NCBI GenBank assembly: GCA_021325515.1
Contig: JAJPHC010000032.1
Coordinates: forward strand, 1-64,000
Direction: 5' to 3'
DNA from: Acidobacteriota bacterium
Lineage (GTDB): Bacteria > Acidobacteriota > Thermoanaerobaculia > Gp7-AA8
DNA length: 64,000 nucleotides
In this document: piece by piece, positions 24,891 to 60,205 of the stretch
Numbering within the stretch: the first letter of the stretch is position 1
Layout: every line of letters begins with the position of its first letter
Made by a program: the position numbers and the translations under genes
Notes under the pieces: generated by a model
Database searches by the model: none
What the model saw: the letters and a program-made list of their open reading frames with translations, nothing else
What the model was told of the DNA's origin: nothing

Positions 24891-25432
24891 AAGTGGAGTG
24901 CGGACGCCTCGTCCGCACATCGTCGCAACAGAGCACTGCTGCCTCGACGAGTTCCAAAGTGGGGTGCGGACGTCTCGTCCGCACATCGTCACCACAGAGC
25001 ACTGCTGCCTCGACGGCAGCAGCTCGCGGACGAGGACGTCCGCGCTCCACCAGTTCCAAAGTGGAGTGCGGACGCCTCGTCCGCACATCGTCGCAACAGA
25101 GCACTGCTGCCTCGACGGCAGCAGCTCGCGGACGAGGCGTCCGCGCTCCACCAGATCCAACGTCGAGTGCGGACGTCTCGTCCGCACATCGTCGCAACAG
25201 AGCACTGCTGCCTCGACGGCAGCAGCTCGCGGACGAGGACGTCCGCGCTCCACCAGTTCCAAAGTGGAGTGCGGACGCCTCGTCCGCACATCGTCACCAC
25301 AGAGCACTGCTGCCTCGACGGCAGCAGCTCGCGGACGAGGACGTCCGCGCCCCACCAGTTCCAACGTGGAGTGCGGACGCCTCGTCCGCACATCGTCGCA
25401 ACAGAGCACTGCTGCCTCGACGCGCTGCACCG
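24891..25432. repeat. Six tandem copies of a 102-bp palindromic unit
   Basis: The 14-mer GTCCGCACATCGTC recurs at 24911, 24977, 25079, 25180, 25282 and 25384: periods 66 (a copy with an internal deletion), 102, 101, 102 and 102. Each full unit has about 24-bp terminal inverted repeats starting GTGGAG and ending CTCCAC, each arm itself palindromic (GCGGACG...CGTCCGC), around an inner hairpin CTGCTGCC-TCGAC-GGCAGCAG. No gene is seen in 24880-25440. Copies differ by a few bases only, so amplification is recent. Confidence 0.9.
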
Positions 25433-43741: not shown

Positions 43742-44635
43742 ATGTCCATCCAGACAGCAACTGCACTCTGGATCGCAGTGTGGATTCTCACCTCGGCGCT
43801 CGCACGGACGCAGGCGGGAGCACGCACCTGCCTGGTCCTGGTCACACTGGCCCTTCCGCTCCCGTGGCTGGTGCACGCGCCCTATCAGCTTCGCGTGGTT
43901 CTCTCATTCGCGCTCGGATTTCTATTCATCGCCGCGGTTGATTTCGCAGCAGACCGAAAAGCGCCTACGGTTTCCGGGCGGCTGCTATCCATCCTCGCCC
44001 TGTTTGCGCTGATCGACGCCATGAGTGCGGTTGCCGTGCGCAAGCGATTGGATCGCAGGGCCGCGGCACACATCGCGATCGCAATCATCTGTGGCCTCGG
44101 CGCGCGGCAGCTTTGGATCACGAGCACGAACATGCCGGCGTGGCTTCAAACGCCGGTTCGCATCGGGGCCGCCGCCGCGCTGATCATCACGGTCGCCGAA
44201 ATCTCGAGCGAGATCGTCCGGCTGATCTCCGCCGGATGTGGCGTGCAATTCACAGATGTGCACGATCACCCTCATCTCTCACGCAGCGTGACGGAATTCT
44301 GGAGCCGGCGCTGGAACCTGTTCGGTGCACGATGGTTCCGGCAGCACATCTACCTGCGGGCTCGCCGGAAGAGCGTGGCGCTGGCGGTATTCGCGCTGTT
44401 CGCCGTCAGCGCGTTCATGCACATCTATCTGATCGCGGCCGTGGTTCCGTGGAAGTGGATGCTGTGGTGCGGAGCGTTCTTCATGGCGCAACCGCCGCTG
44501 ATCCTTGCCGAACGTGCGCTGAACATACGGCGCTGGCACCCGCTCGCGGCGCGCGCATGGACGATCGCCGTCCTGAGCGCGCTCCTGCCGCTAGTGCTGA
44601 GCCCTCTACTCGCTGCACTGCGGCTCTCGCTCTAG
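43742..44635 (+). CDS. Wax-synthase-like membrane-bound O-acyltransferase
   Basis: 297 residues with about seven hydrophobic segments. The stretch SRSVTEFWSRRWN (about 180-192), GARWFRQHIYLRAR and the later FAVSAFMHIYL match the wax-synthase/MBOAT_2 layout (S-x-FW-x-RRWN, then a membrane His). Such enzymes esterify alcohols with acyl-CoA in the membrane. The substrate is unknown. Ends at a strong hairpin facing nrdJ. Confidence 0.68.
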   Translation: MSIQTATALWIAVWILTSALARTQAGARTCLVLVTLALPLPWLVHAPYQLRVVLSFALGFLFIAAVDFAADRKAPTVSGRLLSILALFALIDAMSAVAVRKRLDRRAAAHIAIAIICGLGARQLWITSTNMPAWLQTPVRIGAAAALIITVAEISSEIVRLISAGCGVQFTDVHDHPHLSRSVTEFWSRRWNLFGARWFRQHIYLRARRKSVALAVFALFAVSAFMHIYLIAAVVPWKWMLWCGAFFMAQPPLILAERALNIRRWHPLAARAWTIAVLSALLPLVLSPLLAALRLSL

Positions 44636-44656
44636 AGGAGATCTGCAGAAACAACA

Positions 44657-44678
44657 AGGGCGGCCTCGCGGCCGCCCT
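44657..44678. terminator. Bidirectional hairpin terminator
   Basis: 8-bp arms AGGGCGGC / GCCGCCCT around CTCGCG, between the convergent MBOAT-like gene and nrdJ. Flanks are A-rich on the left (AACAACA), which gives a U-run for the minus-strand transcript. Confidence 0.8.
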
Positions 44679-44701
44679 AACCATTCATTGCAACAAGGGT
44701 C

Positions 44702-47572
<2,871 letters not shown>

Positions 47573-47647
47573 GACCCCTGCTCTCCTTCTTTCGAGAGAA
47601 AAAAATAGAGGAGGGAAGCTCGCGAGTTCTCCGAAGGACCTTGTGGT

Positions 47648-47713
47648 GTGTAGGACAGGCGCCCCCGCCTGTCCCGCGTCTTTGAGCGACAGGCGAGGGC
47701 GCCTGTCCTACAC
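47648..47713. repeat. Palindromic repeat, CAGGCG family (copy 1)
   Basis: 26-bp arms (47648-47673 and 47688-47713) with one mismatch and a 14-base loop; core GGACAGGCGCC ... GGCGCCTGTCC. It lies between the 50-residue ORF and nrdJ. Closely related copies are at 54733 and 60139. Confidence 0.88.
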
Positions 47714-47820
47714 CGCGATGTCCCTCACACCCGACCTTCCGTCCCCTACCTCCCCTCCCATCACAGGCGATCGCCGCTGCGGACGATGCCCTGTCAACCT
47801 AAAAACGTGAACAAACGACT

Positions 47821-47973
47821 CTAGCGAAGCGTCCAGCGGACAAGTGGAGACTTGACGGGCGGAACCGGCGACTTGACCTTCATGGTGACCTGGTAATCCC
47901 GAATCTGGAGAGAGACGGAGCGGTTGGGGCCACGAGAAACATCGAGACGCGACGATTGCTTCAAATCCTTCAT
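47821..47973 (-). CDS. 50-residue ORF upstream of nrdJ
   Basis: ATG AAG GAT TTG ... TAG encodes 50 residues, basic (KDLKQSSRLDVSRGPNRS; QIRDYQVTMKVKS; KSPLVRWTLR), with no Cys, signal peptide or membrane segment. GGGAGGACA puts a strong GGAGG four to five bases before the ATG, and a TTGACA-N17-TAGGTT promoter with NrdR-like boxes stands just upstream. It is therefore likely translated, ahead of nrdJ in the same transcript. Not recognised; it may be a small RNR-associated protein or a leader peptide. Confidence 0.6.
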   Translation of the reverse strand: MKDLKQSSRLDVSRGPNRSVSLQIRDYQVTMKVKSPVPPVKSPLVRWTLR

Positions 47974-48014
47974 TGTCCTCCCTCACATCACCCGAGTTGT
48001 CTGTAATGCGCTAC

Positions 48015-48043
48015 AACCTACGCCTGCCCTCGGGGGATGTCAA
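48015..48043 (-). promoter_or_regulatory. Sigma-70-like promoter for the nrdJ transcript
   Basis: Minus-strand TTGACA (48043-48038), 17-base spacer, TAGGTT (48020-48015). Predicted start near 48008, giving a leader of about 35 bases to the small ORF. The -10 is weak. Confidence 0.55.
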
Positions 48044-48050
48044 GGGGAGA

Positions 48051-48066
48051 CCACAAGATGTTGTGG
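48051..48066. promoter_or_regulatory. NrdR box 1 (candidate)
   Basis: CCACAAGATGTTGTGG matches the published NrdR consensus acaCwAtATaTwGtgt at about 12 of 16 positions and is a near-perfect palindrome. It sits eight bases upstream of the -35. Confidence 0.65.
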
Positions 48067-48082
48067 TCCTCTTGAATGAGGA

Positions 48083-48098
48083 ACACAAAATCGAGTGT
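48083..48098. promoter_or_regulatory. NrdR box 2 (candidate)
   Basis: ACACAAAATCGAGTGT matches the NrdR consensus at about 13 of 16 positions and starts exactly 32 bp from box 1, the usual three-turn spacing of paired NrdR boxes. Confidence 0.65.
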
Positions 48099-48154
48099 AA
48101 GTATTCAATTTGAAGCTACTTAGGAGTTTGGAGCGGCTGAGGCTGCCCGGAACG

Positions 48155-48335
48155 TTTTCCGCCTCTTCTCCACTCCTTCTCCGCATGTTTTCCACAGGCT
48201 TTTCAACACCGGAATCCGCCGCAATTCCGCATGTTTTCCGGGGTTTTTCGACAGGTTTTGCACATGTTTTTCATCAACGATTCGGCTATGCATTCCGTAT
48301 GAGTTTTCCGCAGGGTTTTCCACAACCATTCCGAA
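48155..48335 (+). other. Helically phased array of DnaA-box-like 9-mers
   Basis: About 16 versions of TTTTCCRCA start at 48155, 48166, 48177, 48188, 48200, 48212, 48223, 48234, 48245, 48256, 48268, 48279, 48291, 48304, 48316 and 48327: steps of 11-13, mean about 11.5. TTTTCCACA (48188, 48316) is one base from the DnaA box TTATCCACA. Some units (48212, 48279) are poor. Inverted copies TGCGGAAA occur at 48372 and 48381, and GTTTCCGCA at 48392. A short AT stretch (TTAAATAT, 48435) follows. 48099-48521 holds no credible gene; a 7-base tandem repeat (GAACGAT) is at 48478-48502. Confidence 0.7.
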
Positions 48336-48521
48336 AAGAAAATGGGCGAAAACGGGGCGAAGGTTCGAATCTGCGGAAAGTGCGGAAATCAGTTTCCGCA
48401 AGGCAGGCCGGGGCGGAATGGGAGGGGATCGCTGTTAAATATGCACAGAAATTGTGGCACGTGGAACATTGGAGTGCGAACGATGAACGATGAACGATGA
48501 ACTGGGGGCTTGTCCTTGTCC

Positions 48522-49583
48522 TCAGTAGTCGCCGGTCGAGCCGGCTCCTCCGAAGGAGCCGGCTCCCTGCGCGGTTCCGGAGACGCCTGCCGGGGCTTCG
48601 GCGGGGCGCTCGTGCAGCATCGAGCCGGCGGCCAGCGAACCGGCGGTCTTGAGCAGCTCGTCGTAGCGCGTGAGCCGCTGGGGCGTCGAGACGAATCCTG
48701 CCTCGCGCCCGCGCAGCAGCCGCGCCACGATTCCTGCGATCGCCAGGAGCACGACACCGCCGGCGATCAGTTGCCATTCGATCGCGATCTGCACCAGGTC
48801 CTGCGCCTCGAACGCTGCGACTCCGAAGCAGACCGCCGCGCTGATGAAGATCGCATGGTCGCGCAGGATGATGCCCCACCCGATCAGCGCGATGCCGAGC
48901 AGGCCGTACGCGATCACCATCTCGATCTGACCGCGCGACGACCACGACGCGATGCGCCCGCAGATCTCCGCGACGAGCGGCATCACGATCACGAGGTACG
49001 ACAGCAGTGCCTCGAGCCACGGCCGCCGGATGACCAGCCGCTTCGCGATCGCAGCGGCCAGCAACATCGCCAGCGGGACGGCGGCCACCTGCCAGTACTG
49101 ATGCGAGCCATGCCAGACATCGGCGAAGTACGCCGCGACGAAGACGGCGCCGATCGTTCCGAAGATCGCACTCTGCATGCGCCATGCGGCAATCGCAAAC
49201 GCCGCGGCGATGACGAGCAGCGCCTCCGGCGCTCCGCTGTGCGGCAGGCCGAAAATCAATGACAGCAAGCCGCCGATCCATAAGGCTGTCTCAATTCCGC
49301 TCCCGTACATCCTTCTCCGCCGGATCAGCAGTTCCGCGGCCGTGATGCAGACGGCGGCCGCGAAAAACGTCGTGAGACTGATCAATTCGCAGAAGGCTGC
49401 GAACGCCGAGACCGCGAGCGCGGTGAGCACGAAGAAGGCGAGCGCCGCGAGTGCACCATGGCGCTTCCAGTGCGTCGCGAAGCGCGCCTTCATCGCCGCT
49501 CGCTCCTCATCGCTCAGCGGCCATTGATCGAGTTGATCCGTGATCGCGTGCGCGCGCTCTTCGGCGATCGACGGCCGCATCAT
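48522..49583 (-). CDS. DUF2157-like multi-pass membrane protein
   Basis: 353 residues. A polar helical N-terminus (about 1-40; ITDQLDQWPLSDEERAAMKA) is followed by about nine hydrophobic helices and a Gly/Ala-rich soluble tail ending GSFGGAGSTGDY. The layout suggests the DUF2157 or related group, function unknown. The downstream partner on the same strand starts... its upstream neighbour overlaps it by four bases (ATGA at 49580-49583), so the two membrane proteins are made together. Confidence 0.7.
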   Translation of the reverse strand: MMRPSIAEERAHAITDQLDQWPLSDEERAAMKARFATHWKRHGALAALAFFVLTALAVSAFAAFCELISLTTFFAAAVCITAAELLIRRRRMYGSGIETALWIGGLLSLIFGLPHSGAPEALLVIAAAFAIAAWRMQSAIFGTIGAVFVAAYFADVWHGSHQYWQVAAVPLAMLLAAAIAKRLVIRRPWLEALLSYLVIVMPLVAEICGRIASWSSRGQIEMVIAYGLLGIALIGWGIILRDHAIFISAAVCFGVAAFEAQDLVQIAIEWQLIAGGVVLLAIAGIVARLLRGREAGFVSTPQRLTRYDELLKTAGSLAAGSMLHERPAEAPAGVSGTAQGAGSFGGAGSTGDY

Positions 49584-50467
49584 GCATTCCTCCGGAAGCG
49601 GACGTGGATGACGAGCAGCGCGATGACCGCCGCAATCGCGGAGAGCATCACGATGAACGTCCTCGCGATCCCGTCATGGATCAGGTCGAAGCTCGCCGCG
49701 TCGACGGCGATCGTCGCGTAGATGGCCGCATAAAAGAGGAACGGCTCGGCGTTTTTCCGGAACGCGTAAACGACCGCGATCGCTGCCAGCGCGAGCGTGA
49801 GCGCGAGCCCGAGGAGATGCGTACCGCTGTTGAAGGTGAGAATCAGGGAGCCCCAGAACGCGAGCGTGATCGCCGTGTGATCGAAGACCGCGGTGAAGGT
49901 CGTCTGCCTGCGGATGCGGCGATCCGACTCGCGCCACACCATGAGAATCGCCGCGCAAAGGAGGAAGCGATTCGCGATCTCGACATCGGTCTCGAAGAAC
50001 AGATCGAGCTTGCGATCGATCCCCAGCCAGGCGGCGATCGCGCTGATCGCGAGCGAGAGCAGCGCGCGCGACTCGTACGCGTACGCGCCCGCCGCATGGA
50101 TGCACGCGACGATGAGCAGCATGCGCGGACCGGCGAGATGCCACTGGCTCTCGATCCATCCGGCGTCGGCCGAGACGAGCATCGCGCCGAGCATGAGAAT
50201 CGAGTCGTCGACGAGCGACGGCGATCCCCTCCGCATCCACGCTCTCGCGTAGCAGCCGGCGGCGATCGCTGCGATCGCAATCGCAATCGTCAGCGGCCCG
50301 ATTTCCCTGACGTGATGCGCGATGAAAACGCTCACGCCGCTCGCGATCAGCATCGCCCCGAGCCAGGCGAGGATGCGGATCTCAGGATAGAGCGAGAAGA
50401 TCTCGCGCCGCTGGATCCTGATCAGCGCCGGCGGTGCGTTTTCGAGTTCCGGTTCGAAGCTCAACAT
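49580..50467 (-). CDS. DUF2157/DUF4401-like multi-pass membrane protein
   Basis: 295 residues with about nine hydrophobic helices after a cytoplasmic N-terminus (FEPELENAPPALIRIQRREI; LYPEIRILAWLGAMLIASGV). Similar in design to the following gene product and probably a complex partner. Function unknown. It lies nine bases after the UbiA gene on the same strand and overlaps the next gene by ATGA. Confidence 0.72.
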   Translation of the reverse strand: MLSFEPELENAPPALIRIQRREIFSLYPEIRILAWLGAMLIASGVSVFIAHHVREIGPLTIAIAIAAIAAGCYARAWMRRGSPSLVDDSILMLGAMLVSADAGWIESQWHLAGPRMLLIVACIHAAGAYAYESRALLSLAISAIAAWLGIDRKLDLFFETDVEIANRFLLCAAILMVWRESDRRIRRQTTFTAVFDHTAITLAFWGSLILTFNSGTHLLGLALTLALAAIAVVYAFRKNAEPFLFYAAIYATIAVDAASFDLIHDGIARTFIVMLSAIAAVIALLVIHVRFRRNA

Positions 50468-50476
50468 CTCTGGTAC

Positions 50477-51430
50477 TCAGATCACATACGCGACCGCGAA
50501 GCCGATCTGCGCGGCCATCATCATCAGATACATGTGACGCCACGACGGATGATTCTCCGTCGCGGTCAGCTCGTCGGGATTCCGCACGATCAGCCACAGC
50601 GTGTACGTGCCCCACACGGCGAGCACGAGGCCGAGAACATCGAGCGCGATGCGGTTGCCGGTGAGGATGCCGAGGTGGGCGCCGAGGGGCATGAGCAGCC
50701 AGGGGATCACGAAGGACGGCGCGATCATCCATGCAGCCTTGCGCACTCCGAACGCAATCGGCAGCGTGCGGCAGCCGCCGGCGCGATCGCCTTCGATGTC
50801 GCTGAAGTCCTTCGTCGACGCGGCGCCGAGGAGGAAGAGCATGAAGATCGACCCGATGTACCACGGCTCGGCGACCGTCGCGTGCGCGACCATCGTCCAG
50901 CCGGCCACCTTCAGCAGGCAGCCGCGCGGGATCGCGATCGTGACGTTTGCGCCGATGGGATGCTTCTTCGTCCGCCCCAGCGCGGGGGCCGAGTACATGA
51001 ACGTGGCGATCATGCCGAGGATGTAGATGTAGAAGCACTCGTGCTCACTCAGCGGCGCAAAGAACTTTGCGGACCATGTGGTGCGCGGATAGACCACGAC
51101 CCACCAGGTCGGAATGATCGCCAGCGCGTACAACACCCAGGTGAACCGCCACGCCTGCGCAATCGACAGCTCGCCGGTGACCAGCGGCCGCGACGGCTTG
51201 TTGATGCGGTCGATCTCGAGATCGTAGATCTGGTTGATGGCGTTCGACGCGGCGTTCAGAAACGACGCGCAGAGCGAGCCGAGCGCGACGGTGAGAACGA
51301 CGGACATCGTCACGGCACGCGAGGCATCCGGATTGTGCGCAGAGCCCCAGGCGCACACCGCGCCGGAGATGATTCCGAAGAGCGGAGGGAGCAGCGTGAA
51401 GGGTCTGGCGAGCTTTATGTAAGCGTTCAT
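50477..51430 (-). CDS. UbiA-family prenyltransferase
   Basis: 317 residues with nine hydrophobic helices. Both Asp-rich motifs are present: NAINQIYDLEIDRINKPSRP (about 63-82) and KDFSDIEGDRAGG (about 187-199), which bind Mg-diphosphate of the prenyl donor. It attaches a prenyl chain to an aromatic or sugar acceptor for quinone, haem or lipid synthesis; the acceptor cannot be told from sequence. It heads a three-gene membrane set and is divergent from the NYN gene. Confidence 0.9.
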   Translation of the reverse strand: MNAYIKLARPFTLLPPLFGIISGAVCAWGSAHNPDASRAVTMSVVLTVALGSLCASFLNAASNAINQIYDLEIDRINKPSRPLVTGELSIAQAWRFTWVLYALAIIPTWWVVVYPRTTWSAKFFAPLSEHECFYIYILGMIATFMYSAPALGRTKKHPIGANVTIAIPRGCLLKVAGWTMVAHATVAEPWYIGSIFMLFLLGAASTKDFSDIEGDRAGGCRTLPIAFGVRKAAWMIAPSFVIPWLLMPLGAHLGILTGNRIALDVLGLVLAVWGTYTLWLIVRNPDELTATENHPSWRHMYLMMMAAQIGFAVAYVI

Positions 51431-51477
51431 GGACCTGAGTTCGCCGCCATCCTGCTACACTCCGCCTGAAATACTCA

Positions 51478-52308
51478 ATGGCACGAAAGCCCGTCTTCGA
51501 GGAAGCCGACGATGACTCGCAGTCTTCATCGGCACCCACCAGTATGAATAGTGATCGTGAGCGGAAGATCGCGTTGTTCATCGATTTCGAGAACATCGCC
51601 ATCGGCGTCACCGACGCCAAGTACAAGAAATTCGAAATCAGTCTGCTGCTCGAGCGCCTGCTCGAGAAGGGGAAGATCGTCGCCAAGCGCGCCTACTGCG
51701 ACTGGGACAAGTTCCCCGACTACAAACGTGAGCTGCACGAGGCGGCGATCGAGCTGATCGAGATCCCGGCCCGCGCGTACTCCGGCAAGAACTCCGCGGA
51801 CATCCGCATGGCCGTCGACGCGATGGACATGTGCTGGTCCAAGGAGCACATCGACCTCTTCGTCATCGCCTCGGGCGACTCCGACTTCTCGCCGCTCGTC
51901 TCCAAACTGAAGGAGAACGACAAGTTCGTGATTGGCGTCGGAGTGAAGAACTCCTCGAGCGATCTGCTGATCGACAACTGCGACGAGTTCATCTTCTACG
52001 AGGATCTCGTGCGCGGCGTGCAGAAGGCGCCCAGCGTCGCCTTCAAGGACAAGAAGCAGGGCGAGGTCTTCAAGCTGCTGATCGATTCGATCAAGGCGCT
52101 CATGCGCGAGAACAAAGAGATCCTCTGGGGCTCGATGGTGAAGCAGACCATGCAGCGCAAGAAGCCGACCTTCAACGAGGAGTACTACGGCTACAACACC
52201 TTCAGCGATCTGCTGGAAGATGCACAGGCGAACAACATCATCAAGATCAAGAAGGATCTGAAGTCGGGGTCGTATGTGATCACCGGCTTCGCGCAGCCGG
52301 CGGCGTGA
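51478..52308 (+). CDS. NYN-domain RNase-like protein with OST-HTH/LOTUS domain
   Basis: 276 residues. The NYN (LabA/DUF88) domain spans about 30-180 with the acidic catalytic residues in ALFIDFENIA, NSADIRMAVDAMD and IASGDSDFSPLV. The C-terminal OST-HTH (about 195-270; EILWGSMVKQTMQRKKPTFN, FSDLLEDAQANNIIKIKK) binds RNA. Together they suggest an RNA-cleaving or RNA-regulating enzyme. An internal ATG at 51544 gives a compact start (MNSDRERKIAL) and is equally plausible. It lies 34 bases before nadB. Confidence 0.92.
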   Translation: MARKPVFEEADDDSQSSSAPTSMNSDRERKIALFIDFENIAIGVTDAKYKKFEISLLLERLLEKGKIVAKRAYCDWDKFPDYKRELHEAAIELIEIPARAYSGKNSADIRMAVDAMDMCWSKEHIDLFVIASGDSDFSPLVSKLKENDKFVIGVGVKNSSSDLLIDNCDEFIFYEDLVRGVQKAPSVAFKDKKQGEVFKLLIDSIKALMRENKEILWGSMVKQTMQRKKPTFNEEYYGYNTFSDLLEDAQANNIIKIKKDLKSGSYVITGFAQPAA

Positions 52309-57589: not shown

Positions 57590-57716
57590 GTGATGAGTGA
57601 CGAGTGACAAGTGACGAGTGATGAGTGACCACGGAATCACCCGTTACTCATCACTCATCACTCGTCACTCATCACTCGTCACTCATCACTCGTCACTCAT
57701 CACTCGTCACTCACCC
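57590..57716. repeat. Inverted 14-bp minisatellite GTGATGAGTGACGA
   Basis: Right side: TCACTCATCACTCG repeated about four times with period 14. Left side (about 57590-57628): inverse words GAGTGACGAGTGA. Together they fold as a stem-loop between pilC and pilS. Confidence 0.88.
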
Positions 57717-60138: not shown

Positions 60139-60205
60139 GTGTACGACAGGCGCCCTCGCCTGTCACTCCTGCTCGACCGGACAGGCGAGGGCGCCTGTCC
60201 TACAC
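60139..60205. repeat. Palindromic repeat, CAGGCG family (copy 3)
   Basis: 26-bp arms (60139-60164 and 60180-60205) with one mismatch and a 15-base loop between pilB and pilT. Core identical to copies at 47648 and 54733. Confidence 0.88.

Follow-up and report, generated by a model that had tools for sequence, protein, structure and literature searches.

DnaA control of ribonucleotide reductase (RNR) genes has been described in detail for nrdAB of Escherichia coli and proposed for B. subtilis and Caulobacter (PMC8203912). At nrdAB, DnaA acts via a few boxes, low DnaA-ATP or DnaA-ADP activating and high DnaA-ATP repressing (PMC8203912). E. coli DnaA prefers gaps of 2–3 bp between boxes (11–12 bp from start to start), and a wider gap weakens its binding (PMC11317965). 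NrdR boxes spaced 15–16 bp apart are also a documented arrangement (PMC12176259). Intergenic clusters of DnaA boxes occur away from oriC as well, as datA, DARS1 and DARS2 in E. coli and as the DnaA-box clusters of Bacillus. The datA and DARS loci are defined biochemically: they promote hydrolysis of DnaA-ATP or exchange of DnaA-ADP, together with IHF (and, at DARS2, Fis).

The window analyzed here, a stretch of 64,000 nucleotides within a 5.38-Mb genome (G000:C38), contains an array of nine-mers resembling DnaA boxes upstream of nrdJ, whose hosts are one family of uncultured soil Acidobacteriota. Like the E. coli nrdAB promoter, the locus has boxes 2–3 bp apart upstream of an RNR promoter with NrdR boxes approximately 15–16 bp apart. 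It differs in having approximately 12–15 tandem boxes vs. approximately three (PMC8203912), in the class of the enzyme (class II, encoded by nrdJ), in its box (TTTTCCRCA), in the small ORF that precedes nrdJ and in the presence, on the far side of the array, of an inverted outer box and a parS-like site. With the low-affinity arrays of E. coli oriC it shares directional, closely spaced, imperfect nine-mers with a 2–3 bp gap (PMC11317965), whereas it has no DnaA-trios, does not lie at dnaA-dnaN and adjoins a metabolic promoter. As an intergenic DnaA-box cluster away from oriC it resembles datA, DARS1, DARS2 and the Bacillus clusters; unlike them, it has more boxes, one strict register and a tie to nrdJ. 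Two 16-bp palindromes lie 16 bp apart by the promoter, as in promoters of the NrdR regulon, and nrdR is present in the genome (G000:C42), but here there is an additional DnaA array and the NrdR boxes are just upstream of the −35 hexamer rather than over the polymerase site. The literature we searched contained no DnaA array at class II RNR genes or in Acidobacteriota, although such a search is not proof of absence. If the array acts through DnaA, the same link between DnaA and RNR would extend to another phylum and to another class of RNR, with an array that is several times larger, single-copy and conserved across the family.

The array and the nrdJ promoter

The features of the locus are as follows, listed in the direction of nrdJ transcription.

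48453..48468, plus strand: parS-like site TGTGGCACGTGGAACA, two mismatches to TGTTCCACGTGGAACA
48392–48400, plus strand: outer box GTTTCCGCA (box scan)
48381–48389, minus strand: outer box ATTTCCGCA (box scan)
48372–48380, minus strand: outer box CTTTCCGCA (box scan)
48155..48324, plus strand: tandem DnaA-box array (box scan, shuffles, conservation in relatives)
48083..48098, minus strand: NrdR-box-like site 2, ACACAAAATCGAGTGT (sequence, alignment of 16 loci)
48051..48066, minus strand: NrdR box 1, CCACAAGATGTTGTGG (alignment)
48038..48043, minus strand: −35 hexamer TTGACA of the presumed nrdJ-operon promoter (family conservation)
48015..48020, minus strand: −10 hexamer TAGGTT (relatives have TAGCTT or TATAAC), 17 bp from the −35
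47821..47973, minus strand: small ORF of 50 aa (MKDLKQSSRLDV...) with Shine-Dalgarno GGGAGG, between promoter and nrdJ
44702..47572, minus strand: nrdJ, B12-dependent (class II) ribonucleotide reductase, 956 aa

A box scan identified 12 nine-mers matching TTTTCCRCA at 7/9 or more positions, all in register on the plus strand, with starts at 48155, 48166, 48177, 48188, 48200, 48223, 48234, 48245, 48256, 48268, 48304, and 48316. The steps are 11 or 12 bp, with a few units weak or missing, and most of the boxes are imperfect. The original prediction had counted about 16 units; this number is approached only when 2–3 weaker in-register units (such as those at 48291 and 48327, 6/9 each) are included, giving 14–16 register positions. 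Its description of a phased array with three outer copies at 48372–48400, two of them inverted, was borne out by the scan and by shuffling, as was its observation that two units (48188 and 48316, TTTTCCACA) are one base away from TTATCCACA. Box density reaches 16 matches per 250 bp (at least 7/9, both strands), compared with four or fewer elsewhere in the window. The interval 48100–48440 was shuffled 2000 times with dinucleotides preserved; the 13 plus-strand matches observed compared with a shuffle mean of 2.7 (maximum 9), the nine pairs at 11 or 12 bp with a mean of 0.04 (maximum 1), and the three perfect boxes with 0.03. The claim that the boxes recur about once per turn on the same face of the helix holds only approximately, because the mean period of approximately 11.5 bp exceeds one DNA turn by approximately 1 bp, so that successive boxes rotate by approximately 34 degrees and describe a slow spiral.

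On the minus strand, the order toward nrdJ is the outer inverted box, the array, approximately 57 bp, NrdR-like box 2, 16 bp, NrdR box 1, the −35 hexamer, 17 bp, the −10 hexamer, the Shine-Dalgarno sequence, the small ORF and nrdJ, with the array starting approximately 110 bp upstream of the −35. NrdR box 1 is recognizable in approximately 15 of 16 family loci and its palindrome is also found upstream of nrdJ in other phyla; box 2 is a weaker match. A generic sigma-70 scan found no promoter and did not list the TTGACA −35, and the −10 is weak by consensus; the promoter was recognized by its conservation instead. Only one RNR large-subunit gene, nrdJ, was found in the genome.

The small ORF is conserved in the family (43–50 aa, MKDLKxxxRLATRSPLRSVSLQIREYQVTVKVKTPVPQ-like) and co-directional with nrdJ, and, bar one marginal match, its product was found solely with the nrdJ promoter, in the family and in an order relative (G018). 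It had no Pfam match, and it may serve the RNR operon as a leader or a small regulatory protein. No riboswitch or other known RNA was identified in the nrdJ leader, there being no Rfam match in 44000–52000. A palindromic repeat (TAGGACAGGCGCCCNCGCCTGTC and its inverse) is present in two copies, at 47651–47710, between the small ORF and nrdJ, and at 60142–60202.

Conservation of the array with nrdJ

The nine-mer also occurs in family genomes near the start of dnaA, as an inverted pair with starts 11–12 bp apart, and in further copies in the dnaA-dnaN gap. On the basis of these positions we take TTTTCCRCA to be the DnaA box of the family lineage.

We sought nrdJ in 60 relatives. Family members whose upstream sequence was on the contig, together with G018, have 9–16 boxes per 250 bp upstream of nrdJ, while the other families of the class have 2–4, which is background. 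Among named nrdJ loci from many phyla, those of the family have 5–8 boxes of at least 8/9 in the 250 bp upstream and all others 0–2. Exact double- or triple-box patterns were too strict to recover so degenerate an array, and genome searches used a sequence-only model of it, R1. With R1, 17 of the 18 family genomes were found to have the array at nrdJ (54–94 bits, some on a contig broken next to nrdJ), the exception being G014, which has an nrdJ fragment only. Each of the 17 has one strong array, with a second-best match of 23 bits or less; in the genome of the window the array scores 80.8 bits, the next match 17.4, and the dnaA-dnaN region 15.1. The array is present at nrdJ in G018 too (47 bits), apart from which there was no match above 36 bits in 149 genomes of the class and nothing further above 33 bits in a sample of 297 genomes of the phylum. 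Approximately 60 other nrdJ loci lack it. Of the weak matches in genomes outside the family (up to 36 bits), those inspected lie at dnaN-upstream or dnaA regions, which are likely origins, at insertion-sequence ends, or in short clusters beside unrelated genes, and none lies at nrdJ. The original prediction had proposed a search upstream of nrdJ in relatives, with absence of the array in close relatives among the outcomes that would count against it; the array is present there, and it stays with nrdJ in 17 genomes while the genes on its far side vary.

In an alignment of 16 arrays, 47 same-strand box pairs are separated by 11 bp and 17 by 12 bp; below 21 bp, hardly any pair has a different spacing. 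Conservation is higher in the boxes (1.06 bits per column) than in the spacers (0.73), and within the boxes the T run is no better conserved than the CCRCA half. The units of an array vary in sequence, while their register and boxes are maintained across species. An inverted outer box faces the array in all 17 loci examined.

Possible roles of the array

We consider it probable that DnaA binds the array to regulate the nrdJ operon, the filament formed there tuning nrdJ expression and the boxes additionally titrating DnaA. As in RNR promoters regulated by DnaA in the manner of E. coli nrdAB, boxes of the organism's own consensus lie upstream of an RNR gene and the 11/12-bp spacing leaves gaps of 2–3 bp; these features and the conserved position at the promoter lend good support, by inference, to DnaA control of nrdJ, which had been among the options of the original prediction. 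DnaA, most likely ATP-DnaA, would bind cooperatively to the tandem low-affinity sites, used as overlapping double boxes with gaps of 2–3 bp, and the resulting filament would lie approximately 110–290 bp upstream of the nrdJ promoter. Filling of the array during the pre-initiation rise in DnaA-ATP would change nrdJ transcription over a graded range, such that occupancy would track the DnaA-ATP level and adjust dNTP supply to replication initiation, with NrdR, at the two boxes just upstream of the −35, providing dATP feedback. The inverted outer box could close the filament or support a loop. The sign of regulation may be as in E. coli nrdAB, with activation at low occupancy and repression at high. 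We infer DnaA binding to the array, the regulation of nrdJ and its sign, and titration from sequence comparisons. As the array outnumbers the dnaA-dnaN region in boxes it must, if bound, also titrate DnaA. Its location in the nrdJ promoter suggests a built-in link between the start of replication and the supply of DNA precursors, and the locus would be a clean system for studying why DnaA couples replication initiation to dNTP synthesis and whether a long low-affinity array can, by its occupancy, sense DnaA-ATP in a graded manner.

Against this reading, most of the boxes are imperfect, the −10 hexamer is weak, and direct contact with RNA polymerase from approximately 110 bp upstream of the −35 would need looping or a long filament. 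Moreover, two to three boxes would be enough for simple regulation, as in E. coli, and the size of the array suggests an added function. One possibility, which we hold tentatively, is a composite control locus in which the DnaA filament array, the opposed closing box and the parS-like site together both set free DnaA-ATP, as a sink or nucleotide-cycling site, and switch the sole RNR by their own occupancy; if so, initiation timing and dNTP supply would be two outputs of one DNA element. That the array is mainly a locus for DnaA titration or DnaA-nucleotide cycling, of the datA, DARS or DnaA-box-cluster type, with control of nrdJ secondary, seems rather unlikely to us. It is the largest box cluster of the genome by R1, and neither the inverted outer box nor the parS-like site (12 of 17 loci) is obviously needed for transcription of nrdJ; however, the array is never parted from nrdJ in 17 genomes although the far neighbors change, it is directly upstream of a promoter with NrdR boxes, and E. 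coli datA has five boxes and DARS1 three (PMC4585315).

The many boxes, the opposed outer box and the parS-like site might be expected of a chromosomal origin or second origin, a reading that we regard as very improbable; the chromosomal origin, an option of the original prediction, is contradicted by what is found at dnaA-dnaN. In most of 16 aligned genomes the dnaA-dnaN gap has a DnaA box followed after approximately 4–5 bp by a run of DnaA-trios (e.g., CTACTACTACCACTACTA), the unwinding module defined in PMC8287927, while the array has no comparable run (best 8–11/18 vs. 13–17 in most dnaA-dnaN gaps); perfect or one-mismatch parS sites lie approximately 5–9 kb from dnaA. The dnaA gene is on another contig, and in G008, where the two share a contig, the array is approximately 490 kb from dnaA. 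No skew switch was observed at the array on three contigs, including at strand-corrected third codon positions, the skew being weak throughout and also at dnaA. The array is not the main origin. It serves as a caution when origins are predicted from box density, in that a genome may have its densest cluster of DnaA boxes somewhere other than at the origin. It is equally hard to credit that the TTTT runs every 11–12 bp are phased T-tracts that curve the DNA upstream of the promoter, with no part for DnaA: this is disfavored by the conservation of the CCRCA half, the T run is interrupted in several conserved units (TTATCC, TTCTCC, ATTTCC) and the boxes repeat every 11.5 bp instead of every 10.5 bp. 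Least credible of all is a remnant of coding sequence or of replication slippage. Open frames do exist across the array, but a coding frame was rejected since none is open throughout in all 16 relatives and the 11 and 12 bp steps break any frame; the mutual differences among units whose register and boxes persist between species also argue against a remnant.

The parS-like site and other DnaA-box sites

Twelve of 17 loci have the parS-like element next to the array, often with TGCACA in front of it; across loci it takes the form TGTG(G/A/T)CACGTGGAACA or CGTTGCACGTGGAACA. The element, TGTGRCACGTGGAACA (at 48453–48468 and in relatives), lies outside the dnaA region. It has two conserved mismatches, both in one half-site, and may thus represent a parS in weakened form or a target of some other factor.

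The searches with exact double- and triple-box patterns brought to light another conserved site of two or three DnaA boxes (TTTTTCACAGGGTTTTCCGCAGCGTTTTCCACA-like). Six or more family genomes have it, either next to recN or where a YrdC/Sua5-like gene has its 3′ end (L241 3187–3207, corresponding to G000:C9:23687–23707, with equivalents in G011, G009, G015, G016, and G010). The site at the YrdC/Sua5-like gene is a candidate for a second DnaA target or a DARS-like site. In addition, insertion-sequence-like ends by an integrase-like frame have 4–5 DnaA boxes at 11–12 bp spacing (L217, L219 in G067, and L222 in G078). At L226 (G004:C103), four DnaA boxes lie approximately 70 bp from overlapping parS-like palindromes (TGTTTCACGTGTAACACGTGGAACA) beside a terminase-like gene, and this locus is possibly a prophage or an integrated replicon. 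Elsewhere in the window there are heptanucleotide tandem repeats (GTGACGA, ACTCATC) at 57590–57713 and a 102-bp tandem repeat of approximately five copies at 24891–25422.
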